This document shows, piece after piece, positions 490-22,008 of a stretch of 24,229 nucleotides of DNA. How positions within the stretch are numbered: position 1 is the stretch's first letter; every line of letters starts with the position of its first letter. The notes beneath the pieces were generated by a model. It was not told where the DNA came from. It saw only the letters and a list, made by a program, of their open reading frames with translations, and searched no databases. The translations under genes were made by a program, and so were the position numbers. This DNA is from a virus: positions 1-24,229 of IMG/VR virus record IMGVR_UViG_3300025322_000159; one strand, 5' to 3'.

Positions 490-1041
490 CTATGCCCTAT
501 ACCAGTTGTTATCCGTAACGGAGCGAACCAGCCTGGTGCCCACACCCTGCACATCGAGGTCCACGTACTCCTGACCCTGCACGGTGCCGGTTGCCGGTGT
601 GATCCTGACCGGATTGGCCGATGAGTCGGTTTTGAATATTTCGTAGTAGGCGGGTGCCAGGGGATCGTCTGCGGATAGGATGTTGGCGTTGAACGTGGCG
701 GCTGCGGCATCACCGAATATCTGGAGGGTTGCCCCGATGCTGCCGGTGTCGATGCCGGCTACCGTGTCTGCCGTGTAGATCATCAGACCGTCCTCATCGT
801 AGAGCGCCATTGCATAGCTGCCGGATAGCCACACATCGGCTCGGCCACCGGCATCAAGTATGACGGGGTTGCTGTTGGGCGTCTGACCGGTGGCGTCGGT
901 GTATGTTGATTTGGGGAAGCTTTGCCCGGGGCCAGCGACAGTGGTCGGTTGGGCGGTGTAGAGTAGAGCGCCGGCAGCCGGCATACCTGACGACAGGAAC
1001 TCGGCAAAGCGCGGCATGGGACAGAGGACTGTCAGAGACAT
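490..1041 (-). CDS. Tail spike/fibre head-binding adapter (stand-alone N-terminal domain)
   Basis: The 183-aa protein carries the typical podoviral spike head-binding pattern: a short lead-in, GALLYTAQPTTVAGPG, then TYTDATGQTPNSNPVILDAG, GRADVWLSGSY and LYDEDGLMIYT. In P22-like phages this domain anchors the spike to the tail hub and is followed by a large beta-helix receptor-binding domain. Here the protein ends shortly after the head-binding region in a compact C-terminal segment (GTRLVRSVTDNNWYRA), so it looks like a separate adapter or a spike that has lost its receptor-binding part. Its place directly after the gp16-like gene matches the position of spike gene 9 in P22. The start ATG at 1041 has only a weak GGCGGG upstream; an ATG at 1017 is possible. 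Confidence 0.75.
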   Translation of the reverse strand: MSLTVLCPMPRFAEFLSSGMPAAGALLYTAQPTTVAGPGQSFPKSTYTDATGQTPNSNPVILDAGGRADVWLSGSYAMALYDEDGLMIYTADTVAGIDTGSIGATLQIFGDAAAATFNANILSADDPLAPAYYEIFKTDSSANPVRITPATGTVQGQEYVDLDVQGVGTRLVRSVTDNNWYRA

Positions 1042-8233: not shown

Positions 8234-9030
8234 GGTGTCCTCCCTAGGAGCCTAAGCGTCTCTCTATAGTTCGTGGTAATTTCTTCACCGTCATTTCCAC
8301 CCATGCACCCCTGTATGTTGCGAGTCGCCATGAGGTAATTATCACCATTGGGTGCCTTGATCACTACAGCGTTAGGGTTACCGGAATGGTTCATGTAACG
8401 ACCAATTGGAGTACGTAAACCGTCCATGAACACAGGGGCGATCAACTCACCGTCCGATATGTTCGCTGTCGCAAAAACACCCTTACCGTGCAATTTGGAA
8501 TCGGACACCTTGCATTTATGGATACCGTATGGCATCGGTGCGACGTTATCAACTTGGGTTTCGGCTTGTACATCATCCTCGGTAAGACCCCATTCGATAA
8601 GCATCTGCTGGTAATCATCACTTGACGTATTGTCGGGCAACTCCTTGATACGATCCGGTGCGTCCGACCAGTCGTAAAGTAGTTGCTCCATTGTCTCAAC
8701 ATCCGTGCATGGTGCAGCGTGGATGTTAACCCATACTACCTCATCGTGAGAATAAGCACATTTCTTGCCGGGGGAACTGATCATGGTAAACGGTGCTACG
8801 AGTTCGGTCAGGCTACCGTCATTGTTCAGTACGGTGATACGACCCTTGGTCAGCATACTGATGTGATTGTAGCGGTGATTATGACCAACACTCACTACGC
8901 CTGCCGGTATGGTGAGTTCCCGCATGTAGATACCAGGCATGAAAATATGTCGCACGGACCCCTCGGCCTGCGGCATCTTAAGTATCTCATCCTGTAACTG
9001 TTTCACTCGCTCATCGGTCATACGGGGCAT
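8218..9030 (-). CDS. Cupin-SET fusion: probable protein-lysine methyltransferase
   Basis: Start chosen at 9030 because AAGGAG lies 2-7 bases upstream; an in-frame ATG 27 bp earlier lacks a site. In the 270-aa product, residues about 30-105 look like a small cupin barrel with VGHNHRYNH (48-56) and a later SHDEVVWVNIHA (94-105), both candidate metal-ligand strands. Residues about 168-260 carry the order of SET-domain motifs: GKGVFA (182-187), GELIAP, GRYMNHSGNPNA (210-221) and GEEITTNYRE (248-257). In SET proteins the NHS and the Glu-Tyr strand build the S-adenosylmethionine and lysine pocket, so lysine methylation is the likely reaction, with an unknown target. A 60-residue acidic linker joins the domains. 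The gene sits between tail and ejection genes, so a virion or host-envelope substrate is plausible. Confidence 0.75.
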   Translation of the reverse strand: MPRMTDERVKQLQDEILKMPQAEGSVRHIFMPGIYMRELTIPAGVVSVGHNHRYNHISMLTKGRITVLNNDGSLTELVAPFTMISSPGKKCAYSHDEVVWVNIHAAPCTDVETMEQLLYDWSDAPDRIKELPDNTSSDDYQQMLIEWGLTEDDVQAETQVDNVAPMPYGIHKCKVSDSKLHGKGVFATANISDGELIAPVFMDGLRTPIGRYMNHSGNPNAVVIKAPNGDNYLMATRNIQGCMGGNDGEEITTNYRETLRLLGRTPCQVG

Positions 9031-9032
9031 GG

Positions 9033-9038
9033 CTCCTT
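9033..9038 (-). promoter_or_regulatory. Ribosome binding site that decides the cupin-SET start
   Basis: AAGGAG on the minus strand is followed by CC and the ATG at 9030. The longer in-frame ATG at 9057 has no comparable site, which supports the shorter protein. Confidence 0.6.
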
Positions 9039-9081
9039 GTCGCACGGCATTGTACACCGTGTGACAGCGTGTGGCAAGCTA

Positions 9082-9540
9082 TTAATACACCACCATCAGC
9101 ACGCCGGTTGCCGTCCGGTATGGCACACTGGCAATCAGCCCACCGGCCAGAGCAGCAGCGTTGTCGGCATGGACCGGCAGCGCGGTAAAATCCGGTGCGG
9201 CGTCCAGTACCGCTCGGTTTGTATGGGCGATGTCATCGTGCTGGTATGCCCCGAGGTGAGCTGCCACCGCGCCGGCAGCCTCACCGCCCACGTCAGCGAG
9301 TGTGACGGTCACATCGGCTGTGAGAGCATGGCCGTTGACCGTGCGTGTATCCGGTACGGCGCCGGTCACCTGGTCGGCAGAGTAGTCGCCGGCCTGCGGC
9401 ATCACGGCGCCAAACCGACCGTTGAACCCCGTGACAGCCCGGTCGAACGTCTGCTGAAACCATTGCAGCCATCGGGGGCTGGTCACCGTGCTGGCGGGGT
9501 CCATGTGTCTCAGGGGTGCCTCTACCGGTGCGCGGCTCAT
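9082..9540 (-). CDS. Small tail protein (needle or fibre-tip position)
   Basis: The start is the ATG that overlaps the stop of the gp10-like gene as ATGA (9537-9540); the longer open frame upstream lies inside that gene. The 152-aa product opens with a short helical segment (RWLQWFQQTFDRAVTGF). The pattern NGHALTADVTVTLADVGGEA is common in phage tail-fibre shafts and small tail proteins. The C-terminus is compact and hydrophobic (TATGVLMVVY). Position directly after the gp10-like hub is where P22 encodes its tail needle gp26, but the expected long trimeric coiled coil is absent, so I call it only a small tail protein. Confidence 0.65.
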   Translation of the reverse strand: MSRAPVEAPLRHMDPASTVTSPRWLQWFQQTFDRAVTGFNGRFGAVMPQAGDYSADQVTGAVPDTRTVNGHALTADVTVTLADVGGEAAGAVAAHLGAYQHDDIAHTNRAVLDAAPDFTALPVHADNAAALAGGLIASVPYRTATGVLMVVY

Positions 9541-11207
9541 ACTGGTTGTACCACGTACCCGAGGACCACCCGCTTGCATGGGCTGGAGCAGCGTAATTGG
9601 AACACCCTGTCTCGCGCTCGACCAAGGGACCGCCATACCAGCCGTTGCCGGTAGTCGCCCGGGCCACCCATGCTGCGCGGATACTCGCTGCTCCAGGTGT
9701 GCCCGCTGTCACGGCTGATGCTCAGTGCCATCACGGGGGCAACCGGTTGACCGAGGATAGTGACCGATGGTGGTAGGGTGTACCCGCTACCCGGGTCGGT
9801 CACCGTGATACCTGTCACGCTGCCGTGGGTCAGTGTAGCCGATGCCGTTGCGCCCGATCCGTTGCCGTCCACCGATTGCATCAGCACTGTGACCGACATA
9901 CCCGCGATATAGTCTGCGCCACCCTGCAGGATGGTCACACCGGCCACGGCGCCTGCCGGGTCCAGCACGGCCTGAGCGGTTGCCGGGGTGGCTGGCCCGT
10001 CCAGACCTACACCCGACTCGATGGCTACCTGCAATTCGCCAATGAATATGTCACCCAAGTCGGCATCAGCGAGATGCTGAGTACGCTGCAGCGAGGTGAT
10101 CGGCTGACCAGCATCCGTATGGTACTGGCTGCCCATATCGTACAGCCGACCGCTCTGGTAGTCACCAATCAGGTGCATCCCGTAGGCTCGGACGTAGCAG
10201 TTACCCCTGTGCCTGCCGACCGTGCCACCGCTGACCCTCTCATGCCACATCTGCGTGGTCAGGTCGTAGACCCATGTCCAATTGTCAACCGGGTTGGTGA
10301 TGACGTAGAACGTATGCCCCTCGTCGCTATAGCAGTAACCGAAGCATTGGCTGAGGTCCGTTGACTGGCTCATGTGCCAGATGACAGCGGGCGGGCTGAC
10401 CACGGTCGGCATGTAGCCGTTCAGCATGACGACGCCGATGAAGCAATCCCGTTCATGCGCTAGAAACAGGACCGACGACCCGCCGAGAGCGACCGACCAG
10501 GGGGCGGGGGTGCCGTAGTTGATCACCGCGCCGGCCATGCGGCTGTAGGGGAATCCGACACTGGTGGCCGTACCGTTATTGTAGTAAATCTCGGTGCTGA
10601 ACTCCTTGATGAAAAATAGCTGCTGGTACAGGCTCAGGACCGTTTGCACCGAGTCGGGTTGTGCCTGGATGGGGGATGTCGCCAAGGGGTTCCATGTCAG
10701 CCCGTCATAGATATTGCTGGCGTAGGCTGACATGGTGCCGTCTACCCCGATGAAATAGCTGTCGATGAACGTCAGGTGGGTGAATGGCATGGCGACGGTA
10801 CTGAACGCCTCTGTGACCGTGTTATAGATGTAGGTAGCCGCGCCGTCTGCGATGGCTATCTGGTTGCCGCCGATCCCGTCAGCCAGCAGACCGTTCTGAG
10901 CCATGCTAACCCTGCCGGTGGAGGTGGTCAGGCTGCCGAGTGCCGCTGATACCTCGCCCGTGGCGCTGACACGTATCAATGCGTTGCTCTGGACAGCGTA
11001 CAGCAAGCCATCCGGCCCGGTGATCACACCTCGCACGGGGCTGGCTATGCCACCGCTGAACAGACGTAGGCCGGGGGTGCCGATGAGCATGGCTATGCTG
11101 GTGGACCCCGGGGCGTTGGTCAGCTCGGGGTACCAGTTGATCAGCCTGGCTGACTCCTGGTTGATCGAGCGGCCCTGATAGGCGCTCGGGATGGATGGTA
11201 GACGCAT
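9537..11207 (-). CDS. P22 gp10-like tail hub / DNA stabilization protein
   Basis: The 556-aa protein shows the features of the P22 gp10 family: an N-terminal segment with RSINQESARLINWYPE and GTPGLRLF, a body of repeated beta segments, and the C-terminal block SLGRARDRVFQLRCSSPCKR. In P22, gp10 binds gp4 below the portal and closes the packaged head, and spikes attach around it. Residues about 420-484 differ: Gly-rich repeats with GGADYIAG, GSGATASATLTHGSVTG and DPGSGYTLPPSVTILG. That motif is widespread in other phage structural proteins and looks like an inserted beta domain. The ATG has AGGAG upstream. The gene follows the exported cassette, whereas in P22 it follows gene 4 directly. Confidence 0.85.
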   Translation of the reverse strand: MRLPSIPSAYQGRSINQESARLINWYPELTNAPGSTSIAMLIGTPGLRLFSGGIASPVRGVITGPDGLLYAVQSNALIRVSATGEVSAALGSLTTSTGRVSMAQNGLLADGIGGNQIAIADGAATYIYNTVTEAFSTVAMPFTHLTFIDSYFIGVDGTMSAYASNIYDGLTWNPLATSPIQAQPDSVQTVLSLYQQLFFIKEFSTEIYYNNGTATSVGFPYSRMAGAVINYGTPAPWSVALGGSSVLFLAHERDCFIGVVMLNGYMPTVVSPPAVIWHMSQSTDLSQCFGYCYSDEGHTFYVITNPVDNWTWVYDLTTQMWHERVSGGTVGRHRGNCYVRAYGMHLIGDYQSGRLYDMGSQYHTDAGQPITSLQRTQHLADADLGDIFIGELQVAIESGVGLDGPATPATAQAVLDPAGAVAGVTILQGGADYIAGMSVTVLMQSVDGNGSGATASATLTHGSVTGITVTDPGSGYTLPPSVTILGQPVAPVMALSISRDSGHTWSSEYPRSMGGPGDYRQRLVWRSLGRARDRVFQLRCSSPCKRVVLGYVVQPV

Positions 11208-11238: not shown

Positions 11239-11679
11239 TTACGGGTCAGGTATCTGGAAATTATCAGCGAGATACCATGCTGCCCCGATGTTCGTCGCTC
11301 GCACTTGGAATTTGTTACTTGAACTGGCGGTGACCGGGAATGTCAGCGCCTCGGTCTTATCCTCGCCAGGGCCGCACGTCACGCTGTCACGAACAGTCAC
11401 ACCCCATATCAGCTCGATTGTGACTGTCCCTGTCCCCCCGCTGCACCTTGCGTCAGCGGTAAAGTTGCCGGTTCCGTTGGGAATGATGATGTTGGTGCCG
11501 GTGTCTGAGATGCCCCTGCACGACACGCTGGTGTAGCCGTTAATCGCGTCACCTTCAGTTATTGCGGGGATGCTGCACTGCCTGCCTGTCACCATCAGCA
11601 GCATCTCCGGACCTCCCGCCCACGATAGCGAGGCGGTTAGCAGGAGGGCAAGGGCGGTTAGGAGTGTTCTGAGTTTCAT
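11239..11679 (-). CDS. Small Sec-exported protein, unknown function
   Basis: The 146-aa protein has a classical signal peptide: MKLR, a hydrophobic core TLLTALALLLTASL, and a likely cleavage after SWA (residue 21). The mature part contains four Cys residues (RQC, VSC, ARC, VTC), an even number that would allow two disulfides outside the cytoplasm. It has short beta-rich segments with GTGTVTIELIWGV and no domain I recognise. The ATG overlaps the stop of the 38-aa membrane peptide as ATGA and is preceded by GGGAGCC. It is the last member of the exported cassette before the gp10-like gene. Confidence 0.65.
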   Translation of the reverse strand: MKLRTLLTALALLLTASLSWAGGPEMLLMVTGRQCSIPAITEGDAINGYTSVSCRGISDTGTNIIIPNGTGNFTADARCSGGTGTVTIELIWGVTVRDSVTCGPGEDKTEALTFPVTASSSNKFQVRATNIGAAWYLADNFQIPDP

Positions 11680-11792
11680 GCTGGCTCCCGAGTTTCAGGG
11701 TTGGATTGTTTCACATCACAGCCTTTTTGGTACCCAAGCATAAATGCCGCCGCTATGGACGCATACCATGCAAAAATAATCAGATAATTCAT
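11676..11792 (-). CDS. 38-aa single-pass membrane peptide
   Basis: The short frame reads MNYLIIFAWYASIAAAFMLG and continues YQKGCDVKQSNPETREPA. It is supported by a strong ribosome binding site, GGGAGGATTT, directly before the ATG at 11792, and by an ATGA overlap of its TGA with the next start. The N-terminal half is one hydrophobic helix; the rest is short and polar. It lies between the spike-like 1099-aa protein and the exported 146-aa protein. Function unknown; a signal-anchor or small membrane chaperone role would be speculation. Confidence 0.6.
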   Translation of the reverse strand: MNYLIIFAWYASIAAAFMLGYQKGCDVKQSNPETREPA

Positions 11793-11821
11793 AAATCCTC
11801 CCTTCGGACATCCCTAAGTTA

Positions 11822-11843
11822 TTTGCGGCAAACTAGCCGCAAA
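11822..11843 (-). terminator. Hairpin after the spike-like gene
   Basis: The arms TTTGCGGC (11822-11829) and GCCGCAAA (11836-11843) form a perfect 8-bp stem with a 6-base loop, just past the stop of the 1099-aa gene. No strong T-run follows on the minus strand, so it may be an attenuating or mRNA-stabilising hairpin rather than a full terminator. Confidence 0.45.
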
Positions 11844-11849
11844 CAGTGA

Positions 11850-14800
11850 TCATGGCGTGTACCCCTCTCCCGCGATGCCGCACTCTGTTTTTGTTGGTCC
11901 TACTTCGCAAACGTACTTGTAGCGCTTCGATGCCGTGAGCGCCCCAGAGAAGCCGGTAGTTCCCATCCAGCCGAATGTGCTGCCTACTGTCGGCCATGCC
12001 AGCGTAGTCACTCCTGAAGCCGCTGTGTCGATCTGGATGGTGACGTAGCGCACCTTGCCGGATGAAGGGTTGCCAGAGAAAACGACTGACTGCGTCGTCG
12101 TGCCTGTCGGGGCAAACTCGTATTTCCCCTTGGCACTGGCGTCTACTGCGAGGTTGCCGGTGGTGGAGGGTGCGGCGGTGCCTGTGGAGTAGTCGGTGTT
12201 GGCTGTGGCTGAAATCGTCGTCCCTGTAATCGCCCCCGCAGTAACTGCCCCCGTATTTGTCACTTTGAACTTTGTCGCACCCTGCTTTATCAGCTCTAGC
12301 AAATCTCCAGCACTCGCCGTAATGTCCTCGCCCTTGATGATCGGGTAATTGGAGTTGTATGCACCGAGGGTCTGAGCGCGTCGGACATACAGTGTGGGGT
12401 GCCATATCGAGGCAACGAGTACCCCCGTCTGAGAAACTTCCATGCCTACCCCTAGCTCTGAGGTAGCCAAACCCCCCTTCCCTGTCGTAGACGCTCCGCT
12501 AAACCCTAAACCTGCCGGGCTATATGCATACACCCCATTAGCGGTCCCGGCGGCCCATACACCTGTTCCCGCAGTCCCGGTGTTATTTACATAAATTCCC
12601 TCGTTACTGTTCAGTGCACCAGTAAAGTCATACTTACCAGATGCGGATATTGCAGGAAACTTACCCGAGGCGTCGCGCTTAACAATCTGATTATTTCCTG
12701 TTCCGCTGTTTAGCGTGAGAGAAGGAGTGGGGGTTGACTGTGAAACCGTAATGTCTCCGTTGGCCGAAGACACTCCTGTCACCGATCCTGTCCCTGGAGT
12801 GAATCCCAGAGCTGTTGTTACGTCGGACGATGTCAGAGTATGCCCGCTGACGGCTGTACCTTCTGATGGGTACGTGGCGAACTGCCCCGCTGCGCCACTA
12901 TTAACAGTGCCAGTGCCACCTTCGGTTGTTCCCGTATCTGCCGTGCAGGTGTACGCCCCTGTTGAAGCTACGAATGCGCTGACATGATTGCCTGATGCGC
13001 AAGAAACATCGGATGGTAGGACCGGCTTATTCGCAATACTGGACCCACCTGATGACGCAGCCCAATCAATGTAAGCCGCTGAAAGCCCCGACGCTGTTCC
13101 ACTCACATTGTCCAGTGGCGGGTTATTCCCTGCATGGGTTATGTTTATCATCCTATTGTGAAGCGTTTTAACTAGGGCAGGGTCGGCGGTAAAACCATTC
13201 CCGTCCACGACTAATGGAGTATCTGCGGCTACGGCTGTGATCGTGTTGTTGGTTATATCCAGATCCACCAAGTCTGCATCTTGAACCTTGAATATGGAAC
13301 TTTTATTCCCTGTATTATTCCAAAAGTGAATTGTATTACCGTAGAACTTCACGCCATCTCCACCACCACGGATACTGACAGCCCCGTAATCGCTGGCCCC
13401 GATGATGGTAGTTCCGTGAACGTAGACTTCAGAAATATTGTTGTGCATGTCAAGAGCCATCATGTAAAGAGGGCCAGCGGTACCTGCTCCTGGCACGCCG
13501 TACAGTGCTGGGTCTTGAGTTATGAAACTGTTTGAAATTTCAATCCCACTGGAAGTAAACTCTCCAAGGGATAAAGACAGTGAGTGTTTGGAGTCAGCAA
13601 ATGTGGAGTGGTCTATGGTGACGGCATGGCCGTACACAGTCATTCCGTAGCCGCATGGCCTGCCGCCGTCGCCGCCATTAGTTATACAGTACGGCGCCTG
13701 TCCGATGTAACCAGTTGACTGCACGTTGCTGATTAGGCCACGCATGGCGGTTACTCTCATCCCCGCATTAGCGTAATAGGAACCTTGAGCTTCAATATTG
13801 TCTATTTCTATGTCTTTACCCTGTACCCACATGCCCGAGGATGCTAGCGTGGTTGCACTGTTGTCGAAGATTAAATCGTGGACCTCTAGCCCATCGACTC
13901 TATAAAGAACTTGGAACGTATCAGCGGTAAAAGTGGTCTTTGCTGGCACACTTATACTTGCCAAGTTTCCTACAATCTTTGTTATTTCGGTAAAAACCCC
14001 ACGTTGGTACGAGCTACCGCTAGTACTGTACGGCGTGCTATTGGCGGATACAACTAAGTCTCCGACCACTGCGCCGTGACCAGCGGGAAGGGTGAAGGTG
14101 TTGACTCCTGCTGTCCACTCGACAGCTTGGCCTGTAAGAGTGGTCTTGCCCCCTCCAAAACTTAAAGACACAGATTCTGCGTTATTTACGATGGTGGCTC
14201 CATTACCCCACAATTTTATGGAGCTGACAGAGTAGCAAGTGTCGGAAACATTATATTTCTTGCTCCCATTAAGATATACATTGGCCCCTGGAGACCCTGC
14301 ATTGATGATTGAGCAGATAGGCGCTGAGTCATTTACTGTACCGTCTCCTACAGCATCAGACCAATCAGCATAGATTTGAGTAACTTTGCTGCCAAGCTTG
14401 AGTCTGTTTGCCGTAAACCCTTTCAGCCATGTTTCCTGTCTCACTTCCAGTGGCCCGTTTATTGTCAAGTCGCCTGATGTCCTCACGATTGCGGCCCCAT
14501 GCATGACCCTAAGAGTAATGTTGGCTGGTATGGTGACGCTTGTAGACATGGCCCAGTCACCAGGGGACAAGACGAGGGTTTTGGTCGCGCTACCGATACC
14601 CGTTATTGCTGCAATGATAGTTGCTGAGTTGAGCGCCCCGCCGTTGTAACTGGCTGCGTAAACCTCGTTGTCCGGCTGCAGCGCCGTAGCCCCCTTAGCC
14701 GCACCATCCAGTACCGTAGCCGCATCCTCGCCGCCGAGTTGGAGACTGTTGGCTGCTGTGCCGGTGGTGGAGAGCTTGCCGGCGAGAGCCACAGCCTGTG

Positions 14801-15149
14801 CCGCCGAGTACGAGTCGAACGCCGCCTGCGTTACTCCGCCAGCAGGTATGCCCGTCGCTGATATCGTACTGCCTGTAAAAGCAATACCATCACCAGCCAC
14901 CAGTGCTTTTGGTCCCTTGGTAAACGGGTCCATGACGGCTATGCTGGCTGCGTATGTCGTGGAGGATATGAGCAGGAACACCAACAGCAACAATTTCCTG
15001 ACTGGCATCCTGGATATCGGGTCATACTGATGCGCGGCGGGTGCCGGTGTGACTGCATCGGGTGCCGGTGTGACTGCATCGGGCACCGTATACCACAGCA
15101 GCCGACCGATAACCAGCCCGATGATCACACCGCATAAAAGATATAACAT
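11850..15149 (-). CDS. Beta-helix tail-spike-like protein with N-terminal export/anchor segments
   Basis: The 1099-aa protein starts with a transmembrane-like segment (LYLLCGVIIGLVIGRLLWY). A doubled PDAVTPA linker follows, then a second hydrophobic signal-like stretch after MPVRK (LLLLVFLLISS, TTYAAS). Residues about 420-640 contain short repeating beta-strand rungs (VHDLIFDNS, IEIDNIEAQGS, VTIDHSTFADS, IEISNSFITQ, VKFYGNTIHF, LDITNNTITAV), the mark of a right-handed beta-helix as in tail spikes and pectate-lyase-like depolymerases. From about 790 the sequence turns to fibre-type repeats (GSVTGVSSANGDITV) and a Thr/Ser/Gly-rich C-terminus. AGGAGGCGAC upstream supports the ATG at 15149. Polysaccharide binding or cleavage is likely, but I see no definite catalytic residues. 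The export segments are unusual for a virion protein. Confidence 0.75.
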   Translation of the reverse strand: MLYLLCGVIIGLVIGRLLWYTVPDAVTPAPDAVTPAPAAHQYDPISRMPVRKLLLLVFLLISSTTYAASIAVMDPFTKGPKALVAGDGIAFTGSTISATGIPAGGVTQAAFDSYSAAQAVALAGKLSTTGTAANSLQLGGEDAATVLDGAAKGATALQPDNEVYAASYNGGALNSATIIAAITGIGSATKTLVLSPGDWAMSTSVTIPANITLRVMHGAAIVRTSGDLTINGPLEVRQETWLKGFTANRLKLGSKVTQIYADWSDAVGDGTVNDSAPICSIINAGSPGANVYLNGSKKYNVSDTCYSVSSIKLWGNGATIVNNAESVSLSFGGGKTTLTGQAVEWTAGVNTFTLPAGHGAVVGDLVVSANSTPYSTSGSSYQRGVFTEITKIVGNLASISVPAKTTFTADTFQVLYRVDGLEVHDLIFDNSATTLASSGMWVQGKDIEIDNIEAQGSYYANAGMRVTAMRGLISNVQSTGYIGQAPYCITNGGDGGRPCGYGMTVYGHAVTIDHSTFADSKHSLSLSLGEFTSSGIEISNSFITQDPALYGVPGAGTAGPLYMMALDMHNNISEVYVHGTTIIGASDYGAVSIRGGGDGVKFYGNTIHFWNNTGNKSSIFKVQDADLVDLDITNNTITAVAADTPLVVDGNGFTADPALVKTLHNRMINITHAGNNPPLDNVSGTASGLSAAYIDWAASSGGSSIANKPVLPSDVSCASGNHVSAFVASTGAYTCTADTGTTEGGTGTVNSGAAGQFATYPSEGTAVSGHTLTSSDVTTALGFTPGTGSVTGVSSANGDITVSQSTPTPSLTLNSGTGNNQIVKRDASGKFPAISASGKYDFTGALNSNEGIYVNNTGTAGTGVWAAGTANGVYAYSPAGLGFSGASTTGKGGLATSELGVGMEVSQTGVLVASIWHPTLYVRRAQTLGAYNSNYPIIKGEDITASAGDLLELIKQGATKFKVTNTGAVTAGAITGTTISATANTDYSTGTAAPSTTGNLAVDASAKGKYEFAPTGTTTQSVVFSGNPSSGKVRYVTIQIDTAASGVTTLAWPTVGSTFGWMGTTGFSGALTASKRYKYVCEVGPTKTECGIAGEGYTP
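15040..15081 (-). repeat. Tandem 21-bp duplication in the spike-like gene
   Basis: Two exact copies of a 21-bp unit lie head to tail (15040-15060 and 15061-15081). They are in frame and encode the repeated heptad PDAVTPA that separates the first membrane segment from the second signal-like segment. Such a unit could expand or contract by slippage. Confidence 0.8.
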
Positions 15150-15153
15150 GTCG

Positions 15154-15160
15154 CCTCCTA
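15154..15160 (-). promoter_or_regulatory. Ribosome binding site that decides the start of the spike-like gene
   Basis: TAGGAGG on the minus strand lies about four bases before the ATG at 15149. The internal ATG at 15008, which would begin a clean signal peptide, has only a weak CCAGG next to it. Confidence 0.65.
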
Positions 15161-15439
15161 CTCTAAGATAACGTCGTCATACTCGACGTAGGTGACCGAC
15201 GCTCTATCCGCCCACTTGGTCGCCAGCGTTTCGCCCGGGGCGCCGAGGTAGAATACAATGTGCTCGTCACCGTCCGTGGTGCTGTGTTTGCGAATGATGA
15301 ACATGCCGTCAGAGTGCAGACCGCCGTAGTACTTCGGCTCGCTCTGCATGTCCATCCTGACCACTTCAAAGGCATCCGGCCACTTGGCTACCGATCTATC
15401 CAATCGGTCGGCATGGAACAGGAATGGTAAAGGACTCAT
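15158..15439 (-). CDS. 93-aa hypothetical protein within the exported cassette
   Basis: The protein has no signal peptide and no membrane segment, unlike its neighbours. It reads MSPLPFLFHADRLDRSVAKW and contains YYGGLHSDGMFIIRKH and HIVFYLGAPGETLA before a strongly acidic end (YVEYDDVILE). Alternating beta-like and polar segments suggest a small globular fold, but I recognise no family. AGGAGAATACCA precedes the ATG, the same leader found before the 117-aa secreted protein. It could be a cytoplasmic chaperone for the large exported neighbours, which is inference from position only. Confidence 0.6.
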   Translation of the reverse strand: MSPLPFLFHADRLDRSVAKWPDAFEVVRMDMQSEPKYYGGLHSDGMFIIRKHSTTDGDEHIVFYLGAPGETLATKWADRASVTYVEYDDVILE

Positions 15440-15466
15440 TGGTATTCTCCTATGGTACGGGCCATG

Positions 15467-17191
15467 TTATCGCCTCCGTTGTTTCGTCAGAATCACACAC
15501 CTGGTCGCCTCAGCGTTCAGCGCGGCATCGGTGCTGGCATAGCAGTAGGTCTGCCGCGCCAGGTTTTGCAATACTTTGAACGGTGCCGAGTATGTGACCG
15601 AGGGGGTGCAGCCTGCGCCGAAGCAGTAGCGCGTGGTTGCCGTCTCGCTGGCTGACAGGGTGACCGTCTGCGTTGCGGCGTAGCGGCCTGCGGGTTTGTT
15701 GGCGGTGGTTGTGGGTACTACAAGGTCTGCGGGGTTAGCCGAACCGTCCAGTGTTATCATATAAGCATTGATTGGACCTTCTGCGGTGTTCCAGTTCGAT
15801 CCCCACAGTACTTTAGTCCAGTCACGGTTGACCGTAGCATGTGGTTCGGCGTTGTAAGTGGTATTCCTGATTGACATGGTTCTACCGATGCGATGCCATG
15901 TGGTGCTGTTTGCTACAGTCGAATCTATTTTTACTGCAAATAATTCATTCGCTCCCCAACCTCTGCCGGTAGAGTCAACTGGTCTGTACGATGACCAAAG
16001 CGCCCACCCTTTTGTTGTGCTATTTACGTCCTGCGATGCTCGCATGGAAATATGGCCTTGGTTGTACTGTCCTGATCCGCCGCCACACGTCGAAGTAAGA
16101 TAGGAGTATGTACATGGGAACGTGACAAGCTTTGGCGCAACGTAAGTTGGAGCGATATCGCTTAGTTTATGGATATAGCCAAGCCGTTCCTTTGTGACCT
16201 CACTTGTGCTCTCCCACATTCCGACAAGAACCTCAACACCGTTAACATCATATCCAATATCCTGATGTTCGTGGTTGTTAGTAATGTACCCGATATAATT
16301 TAACTCTTTGTCAAAAAGTTCTGTGCCTGTCCCTCTGACATGTCCAAGTGAATCGTTACCATTACCAATAACAGTATAGTTAACAATCACGTAATCACCT
16401 GAAGGGCTAAAACCCATCCAGTCCACAAATTTGTTATTTGCCGCCGAAGGGCATGTTCCGCCGCATAGATCGTCAGGCGTTTTGTCTGCCAAAATCGTAT
16501 CTGTTTGTGCATCATACGTGAAATATTTAAGCTGTTTCCCGCTTGCGGGTGCAGCAGCTTTATAACATCTTAATGCCCAATACCTGTCGCTGTAGGACGA
16601 ATTTCCTTCATCACCGTTATCAACTCTATCCCCATTGTCTGTTCCATCTGTGCATGTAAAGTTGTGCAGCGCAGTCAGGGTATCAGTGCTTGGTACGTAT
16701 GAAGATATAGTGAGAAGTTTCGCCACATATAATAAATCAGGATCACTATTTGACCATTTTAAATCTTTTTGCGCGTGTGACTGCAATTTTGGTATAGCTT
16801 GTACGGCTGCATCAGTAGCAGAACTGTACAGTATAGGGTTACTATACTGGTCAGTCAGGACATACTTAGTTCCATCAGCGTTCCATGCCTGCTGTTTTGG
16901 ATAGTTCGGCATAAACTGGCGTTCTTCGCAGGGTAACCACCCCCCTACTCCTGGGTCGCAAACAGTTGGGGCATTGATGCGTTTTATGGTCGTCCCGAAC
17001 AGCGGGTCAACATAGGTCGATCCAAACGCAGGTTGCGCCGGCAATGGCCATGTTGTACAGGGGGTCACCCCTGTACTCACGCAGGTGTAGTCCACCGAGT
17101 CCGTGAGCAGCCCTGTGAACTGAGCAGGATCGGCGTGAGCAAAAGACGCCCACAAGATAGATACCGCCGTCAGCACTATATATCCCATCAT
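15467..17191 (-). CDS. Exported propeller-like protein with C-terminal chitobiase-type domain
   Basis: The 574-aa protein has an N-terminal signal peptide (MGYIVLTAVSILWASFAHA) with probable cleavage after AHA. The body shows repeats with Trp and SPSG/NADG turns (AWNADGTKYVLTDQY, WMGFSPSGDYVIVNYT, HEHQDIGYDVNGVEVLVGM, HATVNRDWTKVLWGSNW), which suggest a beta-propeller such as those of TolB-like or oligogalacturonate-lyase-like proteins. Residues about 497-560 (KPAGRYAATQTVTLSA, TTRYCFG, YSAPF) match the chitobiase/beta-hexosaminidase C-terminal type domain. There are many Cys residues, often in close pairs, as in disulfide-bonded extracellular proteins. The ATG overlaps the TGA of the upstream gene. 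The middle of the gene is AT-richer than the flanks. A role at the cell surface, perhaps glycan binding, is inference. Confidence 0.7.
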   Translation of the reverse strand: MMGYIVLTAVSILWASFAHADPAQFTGLLTDSVDYTCVSTGVTPCTTWPLPAQPAFGSTYVDPLFGTTIKRINAPTVCDPGVGGWLPCEERQFMPNYPKQQAWNADGTKYVLTDQYSNPILYSSATDAAVQAIPKLQSHAQKDLKWSNSDPDLLYVAKLLTISSYVPSTDTLTALHNFTCTDGTDNGDRVDNGDEGNSSYSDRYWALRCYKAAAPASGKQLKYFTYDAQTDTILADKTPDDLCGGTCPSAANNKFVDWMGFSPSGDYVIVNYTVIGNGNDSLGHVRGTGTELFDKELNYIGYITNNHEHQDIGYDVNGVEVLVGMWESTSEVTKERLGYIHKLSDIAPTYVAPKLVTFPCTYSYLTSTCGGGSGQYNQGHISMRASQDVNSTTKGWALWSSYRPVDSTGRGWGANELFAVKIDSTVANSTTWHRIGRTMSIRNTTYNAEPHATVNRDWTKVLWGSNWNTAEGPINAYMITLDGSANPADLVVPTTTANKPAGRYAATQTVTLSASETATTRYCFGAGCTPSVTYSAPFKVLQNLARQTYCYASTDAALNAEATRCVILTKQRRR

Positions 17192-18567
17192 TTATACCCC
17201 ACTGAAAGGTTGTCAAAAGTAATAATGTTGGTCGTCGCCCCTGACTGTAGCTGTACACCGAATGTTGCAGCGTTGAGCGTAACCCCTGCTGTTTTGATCG
17301 CTGTTTCAGGAATAATATCGGCACCATTTATTGTCAGACTGTAGTAACCATCAGTGGTTGCTGTGTCGGTACTCCCTTTTATCATCATTGCGATTGTATA
17401 GGTAATTCCGGCCTGGAACGCATAGGGGTAGTTGGCCGATGTGTGCTGTGTCAGGTCGCCATCTTGATACTTGATCCGTATACCGGCTATCACCCCTCCA
17501 GAGGTGTAAACTTCCGGCATGGCGGTCATGCTGTTGATGGGACCGGACACTCTGCCAAGTTGGCTGAAATTGCCGGTTGCAGTGACGCTTCCGAATTTTA
17601 CATCTGCTTGCCACCGGACATCCTGATGTGCCGTCATCGCGGTTTTGTTGGCTGTCGCAGTTGTGGACGACGCACTCATGGTGACTACTAGAGCGTTACC
17701 GTTGACGCTCATTTGGGCTAGCGAATCAGTCATCGAACTAAAGGCATTGGTTGTGGTGCAGGCACCAACTACGGTAGAACTTACGCCGTCTGCACAGGTC
17801 ACAGAGTTAGCCCAATAGATAGTGTAGGGATCGACTGCCAGCGTCGTACTGCTGAACGTACCGCTTACGCCCCCGATGGTCACAACGGTGTCGGTAGCCG
17901 CGGAGTTGCTGGCCGAACTGGTATGTTGCGCCCTCACAGTGTCGCCGTTGCTGACTGTGCCGCTGCTGGCAGTGAAGCTCCCACTGGCGTTAACGTCATA
18001 CGTGCCGCCCGTCACGCTGATTACCGATGCCGTGTCGATACCGGTAACGGTAATAGTGGCAGAGGTGATGGTGGATGAAAGGGCTACGTCTGTCTGATCC
18101 GTAAAGATGAAGGCATCCGGCGTTGAATCGACCCCTTCAGGGGCTACCCCCGTCCCACTCAACGCAGCTCCCACCCTAGCTATGTTCGGCGCAGAGTAGC
18201 TCAAGAACCCGCTGTATGCCACCCCTGCCACCGGCTCAAATGCCACCTTTGCCGTGCGGCTGCGGCCCGATGAGATGTTGCCGAATGTGGTTGAGCTGTA
18301 GAGCCTGAACCCGGCACCAGTGACGCTGGTTGTCACATCCTCGGCGGTGTCGTTGCCTGAGTTCGACAGGGTGAACGTGGCACTGGTCAGCGTGCCGGTG
18401 GAGTGATTACTGAATGCGAGGGACGATGGTGACCACGATAGCGACGGCACCAAATCGACCCATTGCGACCCCACTGACCGACCGCCTATACCCCCGAGCG
18501 GCCAACTGATCGCTGCAGCCGAGCCGCACAGCGTCAGCAGTATGACCACACACGCTGCCCGTTTCAT
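17188..18567 (-). CDS. Exported ASH/lectin-like multidomain protein
   Basis: Start chosen at 18567, where the ATG overlaps the stop of the upstream gene as ATGA; the longer frame would add 47 residues lacking a start signal. The 459-aa product has a signal peptide (MKRAACVVILLTLCGSAAA). Residues about 45-145 (LSWSPSSLAFSN, TFTLSNSGNDTAEDV, FGNISSGRS) resemble the ASPM-SPD2-Hydin/choice-of-anchor beta domain. Residues about 150-245 (FIFTDQTDVALSSTITS, ITVTGIDTASVISVTGG, GTVSNGDTVRAQHTSS) match a beta domain common in bacterial surface proteins. The C-terminal 200 residues look like a concanavalin/LamG-type jelly roll (YSLTINGADI, ITFDNLSVGYK). Adhesion or glycan binding outside the cell is likely. 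A pair of Cys brackets TCADGVSSTVVGACT. Confidence 0.7.
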   Translation of the reverse strand: MKRAACVVILLTLCGSAAAISWPLGGIGGRSVGSQWVDLVPSLSWSPSSLAFSNHSTGTLTSATFTLSNSGNDTAEDVTTSVTGAGFRLYSSTTFGNISSGRSRTAKVAFEPVAGVAYSGFLSYSAPNIARVGAALSGTGVAPEGVDSTPDAFIFTDQTDVALSSTITSATITVTGIDTASVISVTGGTYDVNASGSFTASSGTVSNGDTVRAQHTSSASNSAATDTVVTIGGVSGTFSSTTLAVDPYTIYWANSVTCADGVSSTVVGACTTTNAFSSMTDSLAQMSVNGNALVVTMSASSTTATANKTAMTAHQDVRWQADVKFGSVTATGNFSQLGRVSGPINSMTAMPEVYTSGGVIAGIRIKYQDGDLTQHTSANYPYAFQAGITYTIAMMIKGSTDTATTDGYYSLTINGADIIPETAIKTAGVTLNAATFGVQLQSGATTNIITFDNLSVGYK

Positions 18568-18917
18568 TGCTGCTGCCACTGGTGGGCGCCAGAGACGTTC
18601 ATGAACGGTGTGGCTATGTTCTTGACCCCCACATACCACGATCCCCCGGGTATGGTGAATTGTGGGTAGGTACCCTTGGCGCTGGTTGACATGAGCCTGG
18701 CCGAGCAATCCGACGCGCAGTAGATGCCATACGCCAGAAAATTGGTCAGATCATAGGTCGCGCTGGCGGTCGCCGTCGCTGAGTACAACCCATTGGGTGA
18801 CCAGCCCTGTACGTAGGTACCTCGGTAGAGTAACGACCCGTCGCCCTGGTTCTCGGCTATGGCAGCGGTGACGGTCAGGGTGAGCAGCACGGTCAGGGTG
18901 AGTAGGATACGTGTCAT
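18564..18917 (-). CDS. Small Sec-exported protein, unknown function
   Basis: The 117-aa protein has a clear signal peptide (RILLTLTVLLTLTVTAAIA) with cleavage expected near AIA-EN. The mature domain is beta-rich with Trp, Tyr and Thr (TYVQGWSPNGLYSATATAS, IPGGSWYVGVKN) and contains one Cys pair (YCASDCSA). The ATG overlaps the stop of the gp4-like gene (ATGA) and has AGGAGAATACCA upstream, so it belongs to the same transcript. It is the first gene of the exported cassette that separates the gp4-like and gp10-like genes. I recognise no family. Confidence 0.65.
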   Translation of the reverse strand: MTRILLTLTVLLTLTVTAAIAENQGDGSLLYRGTYVQGWSPNGLYSATATASATYDLTNFLAYGIYCASDCSARLMSTSAKGTYPQFTIPGGSWYVGVKNIATPFMNVSGAHQWQQQ

Positions 18918-19600
18918 TGGTATTCTCCTGTCAGTATGTTATACCTACCGCCCGTGACGCTCGGCACATCGGTCCTCATGATCATGGGTCGGGCGTTCAT
19001 GTTCTCGATGACCTTCATGGTCCTCTCAGCCATCATCCGTATGTCGGGTGGCGGGGGGCCGGTGCGTCCGAGCGGTCTCCAGCAAGCCATTGCGCCGTTG
19101 TAGGTCAACATGGCAAGATAGGCGTCGGGGAAAGTCACCGTGTCGGTCAGGGCGCTGAACGAGGTCAGGTATTTGAGACTGTCGATGGTCAGGGTGTCGG
19201 CGGCATCGGGCGTGGGGTTGATGTGGATGATACCCGGGGCGGCTGACTGAGTGGCGCCGGCATCGTAATAGAGTTCGCGTGTGGGTGACGGCCATACGCT
19301 GTACTCGCCCTGGGTCGCTAGGTCGAGTGGTAGACCGTTGATATGGGCAGCGAGGATGCTAATCGGCTTGGCGGTGTTCAGGTCGGCTGATGGGCCGATG
19401 GTGTAGGCGGCCACACCGGCTGTCAGGGTGAACGACTCGGTGGTGGGGGTGAGTTGGACCAGGTGCCGAGCTGATAGGCTGCCAAGTAGCAGGTTGACGT
19501 GGCGACGGACTTTCTGCATATCACTGGCTTCCGGTTGCTCGTCAAGGGTCACGACGCCTACGACCTCAAGGATCGCTATGAATAGTTCTCGTACCTGCAT
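18914..19600 (-). CDS. P22 gp4-like tail accessory factor (head closure)
   Basis: Start set at the ATG at 19600: GAGG lies seven bases upstream, whereas the GTG at 19606 is too close to it. The 228-aa product begins MQVRELFIAILEVVGVV and contains RHVNLLLGSLSARHLV, SFTLTAGVAAYTIGPS and the helical end AERTMKVIENMN. This layout, two helices followed by the sentence-like beta strand with AAYTIG, fits the tail accessory factor family typified by P22 gp4. In P22 it binds below the portal dodecamer and provides the platform for gp10. It is followed by the exported cassette rather than by the gp10-like gene. Confidence 0.8.
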   Translation of the reverse strand: MQVRELFIAILEVVGVVTLDEQPEASDMQKVRRHVNLLLGSLSARHLVQLTPTTESFTLTAGVAAYTIGPSADLNTAKPISILAAHINGLPLDLATQGEYSVWPSPTRELYYDAGATQSAAPGIIHINPTPDAADTLTIDSLKYLTSFSALTDTVTFPDAYLAMLTYNGAMACWRPLGRTGPPPPDIRMMAERTMKVIENMNARPMIMRTDVPSVTGGRYNILTGEYQ

Positions 19601-19614
19601 GGTCACACCTCACG

Positions 19615-19962: not shown

Positions 19963-20802
19963 CTACCCCTCCGCATTCAACGGCACTTTCGTACCATCGA
20001 TACCATAACTACAGCCCTTCTGCTCACGATTACCCACAAACGAGCACCATATGTGTTTGCCGTCACTGATCAGTGACGAGCCACAGCGAGGGCATCGTTT
20101 ATCTTGTAACCAGAAACAGGTCTGTTGTACCGGTACACTGTCCATACCGTCACCCCCCCCCATCAGATAGTCATGGAAGTTACCACTCTGTGAGCCGTGT
20201 GTAAATGAAATATTGCACACTACCCACATCTCCCCACCTATTTCCCTCCACAGGCGGCAGAATGCGTAATCCTCACCGACCCATCGGCCACCGCTCACCC
20301 CTTGGGGGAACAGGTCGTACATCTCACCGTTCTCATCGCACACGTACCGCTGACCCGGGTACGCTGCCACCATACGCTCCAGGGCGCTCCGGTGGATGCA
20401 CAGGAAGCCGGTGGGCACCGCTGCGGCAGCCACACAGCCGTCAGCACGCTGCACAGGGCAGTCGTTGGGCGTGGTGTGGATGACGACCGGGAAGCGTAGC
20501 GGCTCGGTCTTGAGCGGGTAGATGCCGGCGACCACTTCGCCCGGGGTCTCGATCACCTTGAGCGCGGCGGTCGCCGGCCAGGATATGTCGTCATCCAAGA
20601 AGAACAGCACGTCGGCGCCTGAGTCGAGGAAATGCTTGACAATCTGGTTACGGGCCGTCTGCACGTAGCAGCAACCCGTCACCATGTAAAACTCGGTTGT
20701 GTGGCCGCGCTCAGTACACAGGGCAATGGTCTGCTCCAGCGAGTCGAGAAACGGCGCGTAGGTGATACCTCGGTATGATGGGGTGGCGAATAGGATGTGC
20801 AT
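19963..20802 (-). CDS. GT-A-like glycosyltransferase with C-terminal zinc ribbon
   Basis: The 279-aa protein begins MHILFATPSYRG and has ARNQIVKHFLDSGADVLFFL followed by an acidic DDD (residues 70-72) with ISWPA. This is the nucleotide-sugar and metal site layout of GT-A glycosyltransferases. EVVAGIYPLK, PTGFLCIHRSAL and VGEDYAFCRLW (175-185) complete a pattern common in phage-encoded members. Residues about 235-268 hold CPRCGS, IWCS and KGCSYG, a probable zinc ribbon fused to the catalytic part (Cys237, 240, 253, 264). It may glycosylate a virion or host component; acceptor and donor are unknown. The start has only a weak ribosome binding site. A hairpin separates it from the upstream small genes. 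Confidence 0.75.
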   Translation of the reverse strand: MHILFATPSYRGITYAPFLDSLEQTIALCTERGHTTEFYMVTGCCYVQTARNQIVKHFLDSGADVLFFLDDDISWPATAALKVIETPGEVVAGIYPLKTEPLRFPVVIHTTPNDCPVQRADGCVAAAAVPTGFLCIHRSALERMVAAYPGQRYVCDENGEMYDLFPQGVSGGRWVGEDYAFCRLWREIGGEMWVVCNISFTHGSQSGNFHDYLMGGGDGMDSVPVQQTCFWLQDKRCPRCGSSLISDGKHIWCSFVGNREQKGCSYGIDGTKVPLNAEG

Positions 20803-21215: not shown

Positions 21216-21299
21216 CTTATTGTGTGGTCAATCGGTTAGAGTGACGAAAAGGTGTTGCAAGTTAACTTACTGTGTGGTACAAAACATTCGCACCACACA
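21216..21299. repeat. Repeated TGTGTGGT elements upstream of the HNH gene
   Basis: A 13-bp direct repeat with one mismatch (CTTATTGTGTGGT at 21216-21228 and CTTACTGTGTGGT at 21266-21278) is followed by the inverted element ACCACACA at 21292-21299. The second copy and the inverted arm can form an 8-bp stem with a 13-base loop. This could be an operator for the HNH gene or a trace of its insertion. Confidence 0.5.
21255..21283 (+). promoter_or_regulatory. Candidate promoter for the HNH gene
   Basis: TTGCAA (21255-21260), a 17-base spacer and TACAAA (21278-21283) give a -35/-10 pair with 4 of 6 matches each. It lies on the strand opposite to the surrounding operon, in the only intergenic space upstream of the HNH gene, and partly overlaps the inverted TGTGTGGT repeat. 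Confidence 0.4.
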
Positions 21300-21303
21300 C
21301 CCC

Positions 21304-21311
21304 AAAGGAGG
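21304..21311 (+). promoter_or_regulatory. Ribosome binding site fixing the HNH gene start
   Basis: AAAGGAGG lies seven bases before the ATG at 21319. The same frame stays open further upstream, but no comparable site exists there, so the 229-aa product is preferred. Confidence 0.75.
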
Positions 21312-21318
21312 ATTGAAA

Positions 21319-22008
21319 ATGAAACTTAAACCAGACCAGAGACTTGTCCAGAAGGATTTTGACTGCATCAAACCCGGTGAAGTGTACGGCGGTCTCACTG
21401 TCCGAGAGACTTACGTTATTGAGGGGACGTACAACTACATCGCCCGGTGCGATTGCAAATGTGGTGTGACTGGTTTTATCACCCGTGTCAATCAGTTGAG
21501 GACCAAAAACCGACCCGCTATCAGTTGTGGCTGCTCCCGTAAAAAACACGGTCGGTGGGGCGAACCCCTGTTTATAGTGTGGCGAAACATGATGAACCGA
21601 TGCTACGATCCTACAAACAAGAGATACACCCGGTACGGCGGTAGGGGCATATCTGTGTGCCCAGACTGGCACGATATGGATAAATTTCTTGAGGATATGC
21701 ATTACGGCCACGCTGTTGGTCTCCAGATCGACCGAATCGACAACGATGGGGATTATGGGCCTTTTAACTGTCGATGGGTGACCCATTCTGAAAACTCCCG
21801 AAATAAATCCACTAACACTCTTCTTACTTACAACGGGGAGACAAAGTGTCTCACGGAATGGGCGGAGATAGTCGGACTTACCGTTGGCACCCTATGGGAC
21901 CGTATTAAGGTCCGAAAATGGGATGTTACTAAAAGTCTGACTACCCCACCCATGACCAATGCTGAAACCATGAAACTGGCGTGTGCTGCTCGGAGAAAAC
22001 CTAAGTAA
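21319..22008 (+). CDS. HNH homing-type endonuclease
   Basis: The 229-aa protein has an N-terminal Cys cluster (CDCKCG at 44-49, CGC at 70-72) that may bind zinc. The HNH-related core at about 103-163 comprises GGRGISVCPDW, then IDRIDNDGDYGPFNCRWV and NSRNK. The last part (LTYNGETKCLTEWAEIVGL, then TLWDRIK) is a helix-turn-helix of the type found in mobile phage endonucleases. It is the only gene on the plus strand and interrupts the minus-strand operon immediately after the coat gene. It is AT-richer than its neighbours. This is the behaviour of a free-standing homing endonuclease, which copies itself into phages lacking it at the same site. Confidence 0.85.
   Translation: MKLKPDQRLVQKDFDCIKPGEVYGGLTVRETYVIEGTYNYIARCDCKCGVTGFITRVNQLRTKNRPAISCGCSRKKHGRWGEPLFIVWRNMMNRCYDPTNKRYTRYGGRGISVCPDWHDMDKFLEDMHYGHAVGLQIDRIDNDGDYGPFNCRWVTHSENSRNKSTNTLLTYNGETKCLTEWAEIVGLTVGTLWDRIKVRKWDVTKSLTTPPMTNAETMKLACAARRKPK

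Follow-up and report, generated by a model that had tools for sequence, protein, structure and literature searches.

A variable cassette of genes for proteins with signal-like N-termini between the gp4-like and gp10-like genes of a P22-like podophage

The virus record IMGVR_UViG_3300025322_000159, a stretch of 24,229 bases (b) that we call the window, carries on its minus strand the structural half of a P22-like podophage. Between its gp4-like and gp10-like genes lies a cassette of seven genes, A to G, and five of the encoded proteins have signal-like N-termini; signalled genes recur in the same slot in distant relatives. We read the cassette as a receptor- or glycan-facing set of tail-type proteins that would be exported by the Sec pathway and do their work outside the cytoplasm, whether free, tethered or attached to virions after lysis, with a probability of about 0.5. 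Our confidence is moderate because everything on export is drawn from sequence. In textbook phage assembly, all tail parts are put together in the cytoplasm. On that view, tail parts are both produced and joined within the cell, which makes export signals on tail-type proteins unexpected. The recurring signalled spikes, fibres and glycanases among P22-like tail genes would mean either that depolymerases or adhesins are secreted before lysis or that tails are completed outside the cytoplasm. If phages secrete such proteins before lysis, plaque haloes, biofilm clearing and superinfection exclusion would read differently.

The minus-strand gene order is scaffold, major capsid (phrog_283), gp4-like, A to G, gp10-like (phrog_578), p184, p279 and gp7-like. 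The gp7-like DNA-ejection gene matches phrog_598, and gp20-like and gp16-like genes were assigned from order only. The features of the cassette and its flanks are given below with protein lengths in amino acids (aa), cysteines as Cys, scores from our own signal scorer and a slash at the predicted cleavage site; relatives carry locus handles such as L004.

18914..19606, minus strand: gp4-like tail accessory/adaptor gene, cassette flank (Pfam SU10_adaptor, E 3.4e-11), ATGA overlap with A
18564..18917, minus strand: A, 117 aa, predicted signal peptide MTRILLTLTVLLTLTVTAAIA/E, two Cys in the mature part, score 11.0
17188..18567, minus strand: B, 459 aa, predicted signal peptide MKRAACVVILLTLCGSAAA/I, choice-of-anchor-D/HYDIN Ig-like domain, score 11.2
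15467..17191, minus strand: C, 574 aa, predicted signal peptide MMGYIVLTAVSILWASFAHA/D, 14 Cys, score 8.4
15158..15439, minus strand: D, 93 aa, no signal, 66.7% identical to its L004 homologue
11850..15149, minus strand: E, 1099 aa, spike-like middle (tblastn), score 11.4 from Met48 (15008)
11676..11792, minus strand: F, small membrane peptide of 38 aa (sequence read by eye), stop overlapping the start of G (ATGA)
11239..11679, minus strand: G, 146 aa, predicted signal peptide MKLRTLLTALALLLTASLSWA/G, four Cys, score 10.2
9537..11207, minus strand: gp10-like head closure protein, cassette flank (phrog_578 head closure Hc3, E 5.6e-83)

The sequence-only reading had placed the flanks about 7.7 kilobases (kb) apart, and the coordinates and gene order are correct: 7,706 b and seven genes separate them. 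It had also described the genes as coupled by ATGA overlaps. This is valid for only half of the junctions (gp4/A, A/B, B/C and F/G, four of eight), because the remaining four have spacers of 8-57 b. The late-gene setting is borne out by the position of the cassette among late genes. A and D share an identical start context, AGGAGAATACCAATGA (18914-18929 and 15436-15451, minus strand), perhaps a trace of cassette exchange.

Signals and mature parts of the cassette proteins

Our signal scorer is hand-made and is not SignalP; it was calibrated on 158 E. coli K-12 proteins with localisation labels taken from gene names and recall. At a score of at least 8, 28 of 28 exported, 15 of 40 membrane and 2 of 90 cytoplasmic proteins pass; at least 9 admits 27, 12 and 1 of them, respectively. 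A, B, C (the weakest) and G lie in the range of the exported E. coli proteins, as does E read from its internal Met48; from the first ATG, E scores 5.9. An n/h/c-region signal with an AxA-type site is predicted by the scorer in all five, in E again from Met48. The score does not reach the E. coli signal-peptide range in 15 other window proteins, namely D and 14 further ones scoring at most 7.7 (the highest is the gp7-like protein). The earlier count of five signal-bearing proteins out of seven holds when the second hydrophobic segment of E is included, and so do the 93-aa protein D without a signal and the one membrane peptide (F, called by eye). Gene starts matter here. The gene caller is mechanical and misplaces them (B, C and E in L002 and L003; L260, L266, L267 and L269), and because it misplaced those of B, C and E, the signals of the window group were taken from manual gene starts.

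In 88 loci of the wider family, the mechanical plus-strand open reading frames of at least 60 aa number 1128, of which 15 score at least 9.5. By eye, several of these 15 are lipoprotein- or lysis-type or spurious, and one is the signalled enzyme of L022. The cassette signals exceed this chance expectation. Both the E. coli calibration and a clear split in scores at the tailspike head-binding loci described below make it unlikely that a hydrophobicity rule has merely picked up false positives here.

Two features of the signals are independent of the scorer, one being a lipobox-like Cys conserved in three contigs (see the next section) and the other a drop in identity within E. E is one open frame with an N-terminal membrane segment, a proline-rich linker and a second signal-like segment from Met48, which has the predicted cleavage site TTYA/ASIAVMDPF and leads into a conserved mature N-terminal domain. 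Between E and its L004 homologue, residues 1-69 are 32% identical and the following 42 residues 81%, which would be the usual pattern for a signal ahead of a conserved domain. The L004 homologue has an equal N-terminal layout and lacks the internal Met. Because the layout is kept there without that Met, both N-terminal segments are probably part of a single protein in L004. The linker of E contains an in-frame repeat coding DAVTPAP DAVTPAP between the two hydrophobic segments (15039-15080, minus strand).

The mature parts had been said to carry paired Cys, and the counts are even in all five signalled window proteins (2, 2, 14, 8 and 4). In a wider table, 21 of 30 signalled proteins have even counts. 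Of the 19 Cys-containing controls that lack a signal, 6 are even and 13 odd, and 14 more controls have no Cys; the rows are hand-picked, partly homologous and not independent, and serve as support, not proof. The 220-aa protein of L004, whose signal was seen by eye only, was left out of this table because its assigned coordinate missed an ATG. We infer Sec export of A, B, C, E and G.

The mature parts themselves differ in what they resemble. A has a homologue in L005 with 73.5% of aligned residues identical, and its nonsynonymous and synonymous divergence (dN 0.17, dS 1.46) points to purifying selection. The choice-of-anchor-D match of B (NF012200, 1.7e-6) reaches 28.5 bits, below the curated cut-off of 45; B has homologues in L115, which scores 11.3, and in L016, which scores 10.3 when read from an internal Met. 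The C-terminal end of C is CHB_HEX_C_1-like at a Pfam value of 0.032, below the cut-off, and is common to a 605-aa protein of L016 (51% over 84 aa). The homologues of B and of the C end adjoin in L016, and no other window protein matches that 20-kb stretch. A propeller domain had been proposed for C and did not find confirmation: the sub-threshold end is the only family evidence, and the single-sequence AF2 model, with a predicted local distance difference test (pLDDT) of 29.7 overall and no residue at 50 or above, was discarded. D gave no family at E of 0.01 or below in Pfam and PHROGs; its homologue in L004 also directly precedes the E homologue. The middle of E is similar to tail proteins and spikes of Klebsiella phages (7 matching records; E 5e-11, 28% over 319 aa), its C-terminus is tail-fibre-like by eye, and the whole protein has no Pfam or PHROG match. 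Sequence searches of the PDB with E, C, the 567-aa protein of L109 and the 607-aa protein of L005 returned nothing, and searches of phage records with C, B, G and the 562-aa protein of L171 gave no match. A role in anti-phage defence was rejected, with 0 PADLOC matches at 0.001 for A, B, C, D, E and G.

The slot and its signalled proteins in relatives

Relatives of gp10 were gathered from viral contigs (partly the best 80 of a longer list), named phages and genomes (54 loci); the collections were sampled, not exhaustive. Gaps were counted at loci with a detected gp4 upstream of gp10, non-redundant by gp10 stretch, and loci without a detected gp4 were left out. Among the 128 loci that remained, the gap is at most 100 b in 72, 101-1000 b in 40 and longer in 16. 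Because gap sizes range this widely, the gp4-gp10 slot is a hotspot; it is variable in many relatives, and a unique insertion in the window phage is therefore rejected. Signalled genes lie in 9 of the 16 large gaps (the window group, L005, L008, L158, L171, L261, L264, L268 and L178), where L261, L264, L268 and L178 were reached via a signalled family or via Acetobacter phage phiAX1; without these four, 5 of 12 large gaps are signalled (n=124). None of the genes called in the 112 shorter gaps scores at least 9.5.

The signalled slot genes fall in two phage sets with distant gp10 proteins, one formed by the window group, L005 and L008, the other by acetic acid bacterial loci including phiAX1. 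Phages that are 81-87% identical in gp10 already differ in the cassette, with C-terminal parts and the gene set swapped. L005 retains A alongside two further signalled proteins. In L004, relatives of D and E precede gp4, and gp4 and gp10 are adjacent. The initial observation of a signalled cassette between gp4-like and gp10-like genes is confirmed as a whole, and the arrangement is not unique to the window phage: signalled genes recur between gp4 and gp10 homologues, with a gene set that varies from one relative to the next.

Glycan- or adhesin-type mature parts had been proposed for the cassette, and this is borne out most clearly in relatives, which include signalled glycan hydrolases in the same slot. 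A signalled GH66 glycanase is encoded in L158 (2.3e-78) and phiAX1 (2.5e-82). The signalled protein of L171 is of the pectate-lyase spike type (Pect-lyase_RHGA_epim, 4.7e-8), that of L124 combines an arabinofuranosidase-like part with a GDSL esterase, and that of L022 matches GH32N. A protein of L007 matches tail fibre phrog_38058, and L173 has in the same slot a pectate-lyase-type protein without a signal. The signalled 844-aa protein of L008 and 607-aa protein of L005 have no Pfam or PHROG match, and the signalled 605-aa protein of L016 has none in Pfam or NCBIfam. In the acetic acid group, a signal stands ahead of a conserved mature start, SIPxMxRRVTLxGPTG, in 14 of 14 loci (12 distinct N-termini), a count slightly biased because the signal end formed part of one of the two search patterns. 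Both gp4 and gp10 flank 7 of these 14 loci, one of them flanks 5 and neither flanks 2.

Outside the cassette, the window encodes p183, and in G001, G002 and G003 an additional spike-like protein (567, 609 and 670 aa) lies downstream of p183 beyond the window:

490..1041, minus strand: p183, orphan tailspike head-binding-type domain with no enzymatic part and no signal (phrog_26190, 9e-10; score 5.2)
L109 1442-3145, minus strand: spike-like protein with lipobox-like Cys, just past p183
L113 9267-11096, minus strand: spike-like protein with lipobox-like Cys, just past p183
L115 11561-13573, minus strand: spike-like protein with lipobox-like Cys, just past p183

In the alignment of these three proteins, the lipobox-like [CT]G/CGSP is kept in all while the rest of the leader varies. 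The scorer types only the G003 copy as a lipoprotein (12.7); those of G001 (8.7) and G002 (9.8) score as ordinary signals, and their lipobox was called by eye. The G003 protein matches tail spike phrog_2234 (6.3e-15). A profile of the three finds only mannuronan epimerases in the PDB (0.004), and the 567-aa protein of L109 matches two phage records at 33% over 120 aa near its end.

Free, tethered or docked proteins

In the reading that we favour, the cassette would be a variable receptor- or glycan-facing module of a P22-like podophage, placed in a gp4-gp10 slot that distant relatives use alike. Most of its members would be tail-spike, tail-fibre or adhesin-type proteins with a Sec signal, joined in relatives by true glycan hydrolases. 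Translated late together with the tail genes, they would pass through the inner membrane, shed their signal and become disulfide-bonded in the periplasm. As free or surface-held depolymerases or adhesins, they may clear or mask the host glycan coat around lysis, and some could dock onto tails when lysis brings virions and periplasm together. An externally added phage receptor-binding protein, itself predicted to be signal-less, blocks adsorption, so proteins of this kind can mask receptors when free (PMC12946066; this and the other papers cited by PMC number are represented here by excerpts).

Secretion or surface display had also been judged probable in the sequence-only reading, with an unusual assembly route as the alternative, and the signals, Cys counts, mature parts and recurrence agree with it. 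Its argument that virion proteins normally lack signals, so that these proteins are probably secreted, does not follow. Signals also precede the structurally known tailspike head-binding domain, so the absence of a virion role cannot be inferred from them. The alignment profile of the p183 family matches PDB 7eeq, "Tailspike head-binding domain" (1e-14), and the tail spikes 9vyg/9vyh. A signal stands directly ahead of this domain in 4 of 80 viral loci (L213, L228, L241 and L250). These are the best 80 of at least 590 confirmed matches, and the ranking was by similarity to the signalled L146, so that the fraction is not a population rate. With the best-scoring start within 60 aa upstream taken per locus, the four score 9.6-11.2, against 6.4 for the locus that follows; the least secure of them is L250, which scores 9.6 and lacks a clear ribosome-binding site. 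L146 itself is a fifth case, on a 446-kb contig of a metagenome-assembled genome of Candidatus Sulfopaludibacter (Acidobacteriota); the contig has gp4, gp10, ejection genes and spike in P22 order, and several tail spike PHROGs match its signalled protein as well. The pairing of a signal with a virion-anchor domain in one protein argues for docking that takes place outside the cytoplasm, or else for the use of two start sites.

These loci bear on the possibility that the signalled proteins are obligate virion tail spikes or fibres, which would mature via the periplasm and be added to the tail at lysis or later. The attachment domains would then be the conserved mature N-termini, IAVMDPF... in E and SIPxMxRRVTLxGPTG in the acetic acid group. 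More generally, podophage spikes might take the Sec pathway and either reach their folded, oxidised form in the periplasm or reside in the envelope as lipoproteins, with tails finished outside the cytoplasm at or after lysis, a proposal that we regard as doubtful. The signals ahead of the head-binding domain (in four of the best 80 viral loci and in L146) favour obligate virion spikes, as do the match of the head-binding profile to the 7eeq and 9vyg tail spikes, the match of the L124 signalled enzyme to a virion structural PHROG and the modular pattern of a conserved N-terminal domain with an exchanged C-terminal part. In addition, a survey of G002 by eye, in which not all genes were family-searched, showed p183-like and p184-like pieces but no large spike gene without a signal; its 107-b terminal repeat suggests that the G002 genome is complete. 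On the other hand, five different signalled proteins in one cassette are many to share a single attachment site, and in Pfam nothing but the GH66 domain and a weak GHL15 was found in the GH66 proteins. Some relatives also carry both an unsignalled head-binding-domain protein and a signalled cassette. In L022 and L124, the head-binding-type domain heads a longer, unsignalled protein beside the signalled enzyme, so exported proteins need not be the sole spike; this combination argues for free exoproteins. We regard an obligate virion role as doubtful.

The same loci offer a way around export altogether. The hydrophobic N-termini may be uncleaved anchors or may be bypassed by internal starts, which would give an ordinary cytoplasmic virion protein. 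An in-frame Met (L146, L213, L241) or GTG (L228, L250) is found just before the head-binding domain, L241 and L250 have no clear ribosome-binding site at the signal start, and the caller picked another start for L250. E, too, has a membrane segment ahead of its signal and the internal Met48. Against this explanation stand the AGGAG and ATGA overlap at the upstream start of L146, the overlap of L213 with the previous gene at that start, the lack of the E internal Met in L004 and the conservation of cleavage-site-like and lipobox-like ends. We consider it very unlikely.

A third alternative assigns the genes to conversion or exclusion (morons). Like Lom of lambda, their products would then alter the surface of the infected or lysogenic cell and hide or destroy its receptors, which would keep debris or superinfecting phage from binding. 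The lambda lom gene encodes a signal-bearing outer-membrane protein and lies between the tail spike and tail-fibre genes (PMC12309495), the lipobox proteins would be surface-tethered, and L158, L171 and L177 are probably prophages because they were found in bacterial genome assemblies. Against it, the mature parts look like spikes or glycanases rather than outer-membrane barrels (no barrel family is among the Pfam and NCBIfam matches of A to E and G), and the ATGA overlaps and position point to late expression. The sole hint of lysogeny for the window phage is a small serine-recombinase-like gene in L110, seen by eye. Such a role is unlikely.

Several observations weigh against the favoured reading itself. 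The scorer passes many membrane anchors, as the 12 of 40 E. coli membrane proteins at a score of at least 9 show. No signalled gene lies in the gap of 7 of the 16 large-gap loci (L026, L082 and L173, for example), so a signal is not required of slot proteins and the idea that all insertions carry signals is rejected. A, D and G have no significant family in Pfam, PHROGs or NCBIfam. The spike likeness of E comes from tblastn alone; its structure model from Met48 has a pLDDT of 37 and gave 34 Foldseek matches, none at E of 0.001 or below, and the phage spikes among the top ones carry no weight. A virion role is favoured by the L124 signalled enzyme, which also matches phrog_10356 "virion structural protein" (5.8e-12), and by the G001 and G002 lipobox proteins, which match phrog_3285 "minor tail protein" (1e-7 and 7.7e-8).

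Related systems and neighbouring genes

In the open-access full-text literature, as far as the excerpts go, we recognised no paper on signal-bearing tail spikes or on such a gp4-gp10 cassette; PMC3338817, PMC7504290 and PMC3765740 deal with lysis genes or methods. The cassette proteins are like P22-type tailspikes (PDB 7eeq and 9vyg; Xanthomonas phage PBR31) in their location among tail genes, their putative spike-like enzymatic part and their conserved N-terminal and exchangeable C-terminal modules. They differ in being signalled, in having no match to the head-binding family phrog_26190 in the PHROG scan of A to E and G (the orphan p183 stands instead) and in lying between gp4 and gp10; the tail spike of PBR31 itself scores 1.6, which is no signal. 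PBR31 also encodes gp40, an SGNH esterase with an N-terminal signal peptide for which its authors propose help in lysis (PMC10975493). Like the cassette proteins, gp40 belongs to the same wide phage group and is a signalled hydrolase akin to phage tail hydrolases, scoring 12.1 as a lipoprotein. Unlike them, it is a single gene on the other strand beside lysis and integrase genes, outside the gp4-gp10 slot.

Closer in arrangement is phiAX1 (LC644973; L178), in which gp4, a 321-aa signalled protein, the GH66 enzyme and gp10 follow one another. Its slot has two genes only, and B, C, E and G have no match there (A and D were not searched). The deposited start of the GH66 gene (L178 12083-14008) is too far downstream, and an upstream in-frame ATG gives a clear signal (11.6). 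Starts of such genes are easily trimmed in annotation and the signal lost, as in this record. The terms "signal peptide" and "glucanotransferase" are absent from the main text of the phiAX1 paper in a term search (PMC8566455). phiAX1 is an inducible prophage of Acetobacter sp. ATCC 21760. Infection assays with it may fail because PHAST predicts it to be incomplete (PMC8566455).

Other known proteins share single traits with the cassette. Lom of lambda is likewise a signal-bearing protein encoded among tail genes (PMC12309495); it differs in being an outer-membrane beta barrel, a single gene and not spike-like. WceF of Pantoea stewartii, an exported enzyme, has the fold of a phage tailspike and attacks exopolysaccharide made by the very cell that produces it; in contrast to the cassette, it is a bacterial gene outside phage and has a Tat, not a Sec, signal (PMC7949094). 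Exported endolysins (Lys44 of fOg44 and SAR endolysins) are phage proteins with a Sec signal and proven export (PMC6116005). They are peptidoglycan hydrolases for lysis, unlike A to E and G, in which Pfam and PHROGs found no peptidoglycan hydrolase domain.

Several neighbouring genes of the window stand apart from the cassette. A glycosyltransferase-like gene lies between capsid and gp4 (19963-20802, minus strand; phrog_1574 1.2e-20, weak phrog_2456 glycosyltransferase), with homologues at the equivalent place in L004 and L005 and, by eye, in L141. An HNH endonuclease gene, likely a homing gene, sits beside the capsid gene on the opposite strand (21295-22008, plus strand; phrog_3377 1.5e-53). 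In p279 (8218-9057, minus strand), a tail-fibre-type domain (phrog_12032 1.1e-31, phrog_24280) is fused to a C-terminal SET domain (PF00856 5.3e-7), which is an unusual combination. A PAPS-reductase-like gene lies amid the ejection-protein genes (4338-5054, minus strand; phrog_424 2.2e-38; PADLOC SspD 3.2e-11).

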